Assembly (NCBI RefSeq): GCF_031759225.1
Contig: NZ_CP134494.1
Location: 870,001 to 934,000, forward strand
Source: Mesobacillus jeotgali
Lineage (GTDB): Bacteria > Bacillota > Bacilli > Bacillales > Cytobacillaceae
Reading direction: 5' to 3'
Length of the DNA: 64,000 nucleotides
Program-made: the position numbers and the translations under genes
In this document: positions 24,439 through 25,248 of the stretch, piece by piece
How positions within the stretch are numbered: the first letter of the stretch is position 1
Layout of the letters: every line of letters starts with the position of its first letter
Notes under the pieces: generated by a model
The model's database searches: none
Told to the model about the DNA's origin: nothing
The model's input: only the letters and a program-made list of their open reading frames with translations

Positions 24439-24543
24439 AGATCACGGCATTGGCAGGCCTTCGTTCTGCGAGTCGAATTTCGTGTAATTTACAGGGTTAA
24501 CACCTATACTATAGTGTGAAATAACTAACTGGAGGGATCCAAC

Positions 24544-25248
24544 ATGCAGATTGAAATGTGGACTGATTTTGCTTGACCGTTCTGCTATATTGGCAAAAGG
24601 CGTCTGGATGACGCTATCAAACAGATTGATCACCCGATAGAAGTGACGTATCGCTGCTTTGAGCTAGATCCGAACATGAAACGGGATATTGATTATAATA
24701 TGTATGAGGGTCTTTCGAAGAAGTATGGAATGAGCATTGCCCAGGCAAAAGCAAGCACGCAAAATATGGTGCAAATGGCAAAGGAATCCGGCCTGGAATA
24801 TAATATTGATACACTCATCTTGACCAATACATTCGATGCGCACCGTCTGACGATGTTTGCGAAAAAGCATGGATTGATGGCAGAGATGACGGAAAGAATT
24901 TTAAGGGCTTATTTTACCGAATCAAAGCACATAGGAGACCATGAAACTTTGACAGAATTGGCTGTCGAAGTGGGACTCGACCGTGAAGCAGTAGAGAAAA
25001 TGCTTGCCAATGGTGAAATGGCCGATGAAGTCCGTGCTGATGAAAGCACCGGGCAGCAGTATGGCATTACTGGTGTGCCATTCTTCCTTATCAATAAGAA
25101 ATACGCCATTACAGGCGCACAGCCGACGGATGTGATCGTCCAGTCATTGAAAAAGGTTATTGCCGAGAATGAAATTACCGTTTTGAACAGCGATGATGAA
25201 ATGATTTGTGATGACGATGGCTGTGAAATCCCTAATAAAAAGAACTAG
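24544..25248 (+). CDS. FrnE/DsbA-family oxidoreductase with in-frame TGA at catalytic Cys (possible selenoprotein)
   Basis: The frame from ATG 24544 to TAG 25248 encodes a 234-residue FrnE-like thioredoxin-fold protein and is open except for TGA 24574-24576, which is residue 11. It sits at the first Cys of the CPFC motif: the sequence reads WTDFA-[TGA]-PFCYIGKRRL, where relatives have WTDFACPFC. The second Cys (residue 14) is kept. Downstream the fold is intact, including the cis-Pro loop GVPFFL. GGAGGG seven bases upstream of ATG 24544 is an excellent ribosome binding site, whereas the first usable start after the TGA (GTG 24643) has none and would lose the active site. A SECIS-like hairpin lies at 24599-24615. 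I interpret TGA as a selenocysteine codon if the genome has sel genes; otherwise it is a pseudogene. Confidence 0.75.
24599..24615 (+). promoter_or_regulatory. Candidate bacterial SECIS hairpin
   Basis: GGCGTC and GACGCT pair (six pairs, the outer one G-U) around the loop TGGAT, whose second base is G. The loop starts 28 bases after the TGA. Bacterial SECIS elements are short hairpins inside the coding region with a G early in the apical loop, about 16-37 bases after the UGA; this one fits those limits. Confidence 0.5.

Follow-up and report, generated by a model that had tools for sequence, protein, structure and literature searches.

Genes and features at the locus

The window analysed here, a stretch of 64,000 nucleotides of the Mesobacillus jeotgali genome (assembly GCF_031759225.1, contig NZ_CP134494.1, positions 870,001 to 934,000), carries a frnE-type gene in which TGA occupies codon 11 and is the sole in-frame stop between the ATG and the terminal TAG (Table 1). 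The initial annotation, made from the letters of the sequence, had described this 234-codon frame behind a strong ribosome-binding site and had proposed a candidate selenoprotein. The coordinates of the frame and of the GGAGGG sequence were confirmed, and a GGAGG-like sequence also lies 5′ of the gene in most relatives inspected. The promoter-like site further upstream carries little weight, since a sigma-70 scan found 5 sites where 2.2 ± 1.7 were expected. A terminator-like hairpin extends over the stop codon towards the nitroreductase gene; it was not among the matches of a pattern scan of the region. The gene appears to stand alone, as an acetyltransferase-family gene ends on its 5′ side and a convergent nitroreductase-family gene lies on its 3′ side, and these neighbours point to no pathway.

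Table 1 Features of the frnE-type locus, in positions of the window
Feature	Position	Strand	Basis
Promoter-like site TTTACA-16-TATAGT	24488–24515	+	10/12 consensus match
Ribosome-binding sequence GGAGGG, 7 nt 5′ of the ATG	24531–24536	+	Sequence
frnE-type gene with putative selenocysteine codon	24544–25248	+	234 aa and TAG (25246–25248); matches to Pfam DSBA (PF01323) and PDB FrnE
TGA at codon 11, very likely selenocysteine; first residue of UPFC	24574–24576	+	Conserved in relatives
Cys14, second active-site position of UPFC	24583–24585	+	Sequence
Putative SECIS hairpin, 6-bp stem (24599–24604 with 24610–24615), loop TGGAT (24605–24609)	24599–24615	+	Covariation, fixed synonymous codons
C-terminal CX4C motif (Cys222, Cys227)	25207–25224	+	Counterpart of FrnE 239-CXXXXC-244
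Terminator-like hairpin over the stop codon	25238–25267	+	Fold −16 kcal/mol, z −4.28

The genome, one contig of 4,634,919 bases, contains selA, selB, selC and selD, the four genes that the initial annotation had suggested looking for, and thus the machinery expected of a bacterium with selenoproteins. Profile searches of the genome returned 560 bits for selA, 368 bits for selB and 393 bits for selD, and selC was recognized as a tRNA-Sec with anticodon TCA (58.3 bits, over the Rfam cut-off). The selD gene (L014:13752-14918), divergent from selA, has an in-frame TGA of its own at a UGCK site, and two genes of the formate dehydrogenase (FdhA) type (L099 and L102) have an in-frame TGA at the Sec site, in contexts resembling UHAPS and UHSS. 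Counting these three genes and the frnE-type gene, the genome holds at least four candidate selenoproteins.

The TGA codon among relatives and in public records

Searches of 101 genomes, including that of M. jeotgali, gave a match of any kind in 92. All 41 genes read in the close clade (L020–L060, the window's own among them) encode UPFC with TGA at codon 11. A 42nd genome (G004, a draft) has TGA at the same codon and was dropped because of frame breaks in the gene and stops in selA; its locus, L063, is excluded from the 41, from the codon set and from the tree. L058 was cut at a frame break near residue 189, and these two draft loci are the only ones in which frame breaks were met; the initial annotation had named additional stops and frameshifts in relatives as the mark of a simple pseudogene. 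In a scan of named genomes, TGA was found in 79 of the 80 loci kept (80 of 114 matched) and TGT in one, L162; the nearest named records belong to Mesobacillus and to Bacillus sp. ISL strains. The sets of 41 and 80 are not independent, as the same genomes occur in both (L022 and L106, for instance, share a contig of 125,319 bases).

Cysteine occurs at residue 11 in five members of the clade (L162, P0015, P0030, P0033, and P0100) and in 16 more distant relatives, and TGG occurs in no locus read. The UGA aligns with the catalytic Cys of homologues, as expected of a bacterial selenoprotein. In the 101 genomes, selA passed its cut-off in 76, among them all 41 of the close clade, and none of the 25 genomes without such a gene has the TGA form (Fisher p 1.9e-7, a statistic that ignores kinship). 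The selA of G015 (C1:1845480-1846866) is divided between two frames that overlap, by a frameshift that is either real or due to sequencing; this genome is a single contig and retains the TGA gene. In the 66%-complete draft G009, selA is partial with two stops.

Public protein records mostly begin after the catalytic residue, which makes the enzyme invisible to ordinary annotation: among the best 120 of 7861 records, 101 have their start beyond residue 11, and the others show Trp (15) or Cys (4) at that position and in no case selenocysteine (Sec), although a record bearing U might escape this search. The truncated call from GTG 24643 that the initial annotation had anticipated does exist, as a protein of 201 aa; close relatives are more often started elsewhere, at the ATT of residue 16 (217–219 aa).

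The hairpin downstream of the TGA

The hairpin GGCGTC-TGGAT-GACGCT, which the initial annotation had placed 28 bases after the TGA, is present; the 28 nt reach to its apical loop, and the stem already starts 22 nt after the TGA. Published limits for bacterial SECIS elements comprise a loop of 3–9 nt, a stem of 4–16 bp, an MFE of at most −7.5, a G in the first two loop positions and a distance of 16–37 nt from the UGA (PMC13188914). The window's hairpin lies within all of them (6 bp, loop TGGAT, 28 nt, predicted −8.4 to −9.4 kcal/mol when folded alone), including the apical G to which the initial annotation had pointed. The same holds for 77 of 95 distinct hairpin regions, a second Sec family and L062 included, and a further 17 fall short in energy alone (12 of the window's clade and 5 of the second Sec family); among the 95, L062 has no hairpin within the published limits. 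The window's 60-nt region is not exceptional against shuffled versions (z −1.52; 11 of 200 shuffles fold as well). Single-sequence folding is thus not decisive, and the case for the hairpin being real is comparative.

The covariation alignment comprises 80 elements, 67 of them distinct, with L162 excluded because it encodes Cys. Base pairing is kept in 98.3% of 402 cells, and double-sided changes occur in 21 cells, compared with 6.0 ± 3.2 in shuffles that ignore kinship (0 of 500 as high) and 0–1 in slid controls. Compensatory changes are seen in two pairs of the hairpin: at columns 29/39, 12 distinct sequences have A-U in place of G-C and 3 have G-U, and at columns 26/42 A-U occurs in 9. Two of the five covariation measures are not above the shuffles, namely pairs changed on both sides (2 vs. 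1.6; 285 of 500) and further pair types (5 vs. 5.0; 486 of 500). RNAalifold independently recovers the same stem, together with a small stem at columns 10–22 without covariation.

Synonymous codons over the hairpin are unusually fixed in the Sec genes. After removal of 19 of 120 Sec coding sequences as identical, the dominant-codon fraction was 0.83 at residues 12–24 (10 codons scored) vs. 0.58 elsewhere (115 codons; p 4e-4), compared with 0.56 in both places and no such fixation in the Cys genes (p 0.37). The hairpin region of the Cys-encoding L162 folds at −1.8, where 30 distinct Sec regions average −9.3; energy alone does not separate Sec from Cys, as the 16 Cys relatives average −4.7 and reach down to −12.8.

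Protein family, fold and cysteines

The assignment to a FrnE/DsbA-type protein made in the initial annotation is borne out by the Pfam DSBA domain (PF01323; residues 2–202, E 4.6e-46) and by the best solved structure found by sequence, FrnE of Deinococcus radiodurans (5cnw; residues 2–234, E 1.7e-55), with Streptomyces SCO1869 (3gl5) as the other closest structure. An AlphaFold model, built for the Cys11 form (mean pLDDT 91.5), led a Foldseek search to the same two proteins, with FrnE 5cnw at rank 1 (E 3.6e-23, TM 0.88). No NCBIfam model was over its cut-off for the window protein or for five proteins of these families that were submitted.

The sequence and the Cys11-form model thus combine the DSBA domain with the FrnE fold that defines the FrnE subfamily. 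The N-terminal CP(W/F)C of that subfamily is represented by UPFC if Sec is counted as replacing the first Cys, and the C-terminal CXXXXC, present in many FrnE members though not all, by Cys222 and Cys227. With Sec at position 11, the thiol and selenol residues of the protein would be Sec11, Cys14, Cys38, Cys222, and Cys227.

Deinococcus FrnE (DR_0659; PDB 5cnw, 5co3, 5coh, 5e59, 5xwh, and 5cp1) resembles the window protein in having its active-site motif and its C-terminal CX4C at corresponding places, and differs in the motif itself, which is CPWC with Cys22 in FrnE and UPFC with predicted Sec11 here. In FrnE, the published description assigns Cys22 and Cys25 to the active site and places the C-terminal 239-CXXXXC-244 tail at the active site of another molecule; crystals grown with DTT contained a Cys244-Cys22 bond, and the authors proposed that the tail helps to regenerate the active site (PMC8945050). 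In the monomer model of the window protein, the C-terminal tail is unstructured (pLDDT <50 for residues 216–234). Several Sec FrnE members end near residue 210 without the CX4C (e.g., L055, L056, L170, L175, L178, L180–L183, and L185), and the frames of L177 and L184 run into a TGA at residue 215.

Proposed mechanism and alternative readings

The machinery, the conserved TGA and the comparison of hairpins support the selenoprotein proposal, and taken with the protein family they make it very likely, on the evidence of the sequences compared, that the TGA codes for selenocysteine. We are highly confident in the reading that the gene encodes a probably cytoplasmic FrnE-type thiol:disulfide oxidoreductase in which Sec11 would replace the nucleophilic first Cys (Sec11-Pro-Phe-Cys14). 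SelB carrying Sec-tRNA(UCA) would bind the hairpin at 24599–24615, causing the ribosome to read UGA 24574–24576 as Sec. By likeness to FrnE, Sec11 would then attack substrate disulfides and Cys14 would resolve the resulting intermediate. By analogy with Deinococcus FrnE, the Cys222-X4-Cys227 tail may help to return the active site to its reduced state, perhaps acting from an adjacent subunit, with electrons that could come from thioredoxin reductase; as some clade members have no such tail, this step cannot be general.

What the protein does with this active site is the part of the reading with the most serious competitor. In vitro, Deinococcus FrnE shows isomerase activity and also reduces insulin, and cells mutant for it show sensitivity to cadmium and diamide (PMC8945050), so the Sec protein could serve chiefly as a disulfide isomerase or chaperone, or take part in defence against peroxide or metals, instead of acting as a reductase. 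We regard this as possible but rather unlikely; the acetyltransferase- and nitroreductase-family neighbours indicate no pathway.

The late starts of the 101 records mentioned above would be accounted for if translation really ended at the TGA and a functional protein of reduced length were made from the ATT of residue 16 or from GTG 24643. Such a form would, according to the model, be without the first strand and the active site, and the ribosome-binding sequence and start codon lie 5′ of the TGA. Each of residues 3–10, also encoded 5′ of the TGA, is unchanged in at least 87 of the 88 distinct sequences compared. Low dN over codons 1–33 points in the same direction, as weaker evidence because codons of the short form are included. 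A downstream restart is therefore very improbable and was rejected on account of the conserved residues and of the start signals before the TGA.

The interrupted frame and the shortened public protein could also suggest an ordinary pseudogene, truncated by a nonsense mutation and drifting thereafter. The recurrence of the TGA at one codon throughout both overlapping sets of genes, save for L162, speaks strongly against this, as do the frame breaks restricted to two draft loci. The initial annotation had noted that the rest of the frame is free of decay, and dN/dS after the TGA is indeed 0.026–0.08 in 11 of 12 ungapped pairs, with the twelfth saturated; several of these ratios are rough because synonymous distances exceed 1. 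We rejected the pseudogene, to which we assign hardly any probability. Equally negligible, and likewise rejected, is a reading of UGA as tryptophan or by general suppression, which the 15 records with Trp could suggest as the presumable product of a TGA=Trp code. TGA terminates 8 of the 34 stop-to-stop frames of at least 250 codons in the window; the one alternative codon in the named loci (80 of 114 matched) is TGT, the 16 more distant relatives have Cys, and no locus read has TGG. Covariation in the hairpin and the presence of selA in the genomes also speak against it.

Evolution of the predicted selenocysteine form

A tree of 84 proteins was built by a quick method with a midpoint root and carries a long-branch warning; close copies and broken, odd or distant sequences were excluded (L021–L034, L038, L050, L058, L078, L192, L200, and L208–L211 among others). 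The clade, represented by 33 Sec and 5 Cys rows, is recovered as a single branch next to Cys FrnE proteins (SH-aLRT 100); its five Cys members lie within it, and the second Sec family and the Sec proteins of other classes of the phylum fall outside it. Over the entire tree the Sec/Cys label has to change 7 times, and the starred branches force 2 of these changes. The simplest reading is a single Cys-to-Sec change at the base of the clade followed by reversions; the midpoint root and many open inner branches leave the number and direction of reversions unfixed, and the deep joins between Sec families are not relied on, given the quick method and long branches.

One of the Cys members, the TGT form L162 (L162:3001-3696) from a metagenome-assembled genome, sits inside the Sec clade with both the hairpin and the codon bias gone. 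Conversely, L062 (L062:501-1208, genome G092) is a lone UPFC/TGA protein inside a clade of Cys-type FrnE, without a hairpin in the published limits, and its TGA stems either from a recent change of Cys to Sec or from an error in sequencing.

On balance, we lean slightly towards a broader scenario in which the gene represents a seleno-disulfide reductase, hidden and widespread in Bacillaceae and neighbouring families and mis-started in public calls, that would have arisen from a Cys FrnE inside the order, separately from the distant Sec DsbA families and perhaps again in L062, with several later reversions to Cys accompanied by loss of the SECIS. Independently of this scenario, a sizeable set of very likely selenoprotein genes is mostly started beyond the catalytic residue in present records, and the Sec clade, its Cys relatives and the hairpin-less Cys form offer a natural experiment on the benefit of selenium to a disulfide reductase. 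The scenario, if true, would tell against the idea that reversion from Sec to Cys hardly occurs outside FdhA and SelD. The Bacillaceae and neighbouring families are mostly aerobic or facultative, and the scenario would likewise be at odds with the notion that selenoproteins are seldom retained by aerobes. A 2026 review states that aerobic bacteria seldom keep them (PMC13188914). As selA passes its cut-off in 76 genomes of the 101 searched, which belong mostly to the window's genus and family or order, this rarity is worth re-examining.

Relation to known DsbA-like selenoproteins

DsbA-like selenoproteins with a UxxC motif belong to the same domain family (PF01323) and have Sec at the same motif position; they are assigned to COG2761, which we take to be the FrnE group. 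The initial annotation had rightly counted FrnE-like proteins among the bacterial Sec families, and because such proteins are already reported, the frnE-type Sec gene adds to a known kind. Nine DsbA-like Sec sequences of COG2761 were described from the Sargasso Sea (PMC1088965), a 2006 survey lists four, with three selenoproteins in all Bacillales (PMC1794560), and a 2016 count gives 45 in 41 organisms (PMC5029168). Within the open-licence literature, taken by title or the start of the abstract and without supplements, we found no account of a Sec FrnE/DsbA protein in Bacillaceae, and the main text of the deep-Sep paper (PMC12013277) has no mention of DsbA, FrnE, Bacill-, Firmicutes, or Mesobacillus.

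Eight Sec forms from other classes of the phylum are 27–34% identical to the window protein. The Cys-type FrnE proteins of the same order (L064–L069 and L081–L089) are closer, with 45–55% identity, similar length and mostly a CX4C tail, and differ in having TGT or TGC at codon 11 and no fixation of the codons in the hairpin region. The second Sec DsbA family in relatives (L070–L080), which has no match in the window's genome, is 25–32% identical to the window protein, and all 11 of its loci that were read encode UPFC, with TGA in the corresponding place of the motif. This family has a near-invariant hairpin of its own, GCGGAGNNTCCGC, which lies nearer to the TGA and whose stem varies so little that covariation is uninformative.
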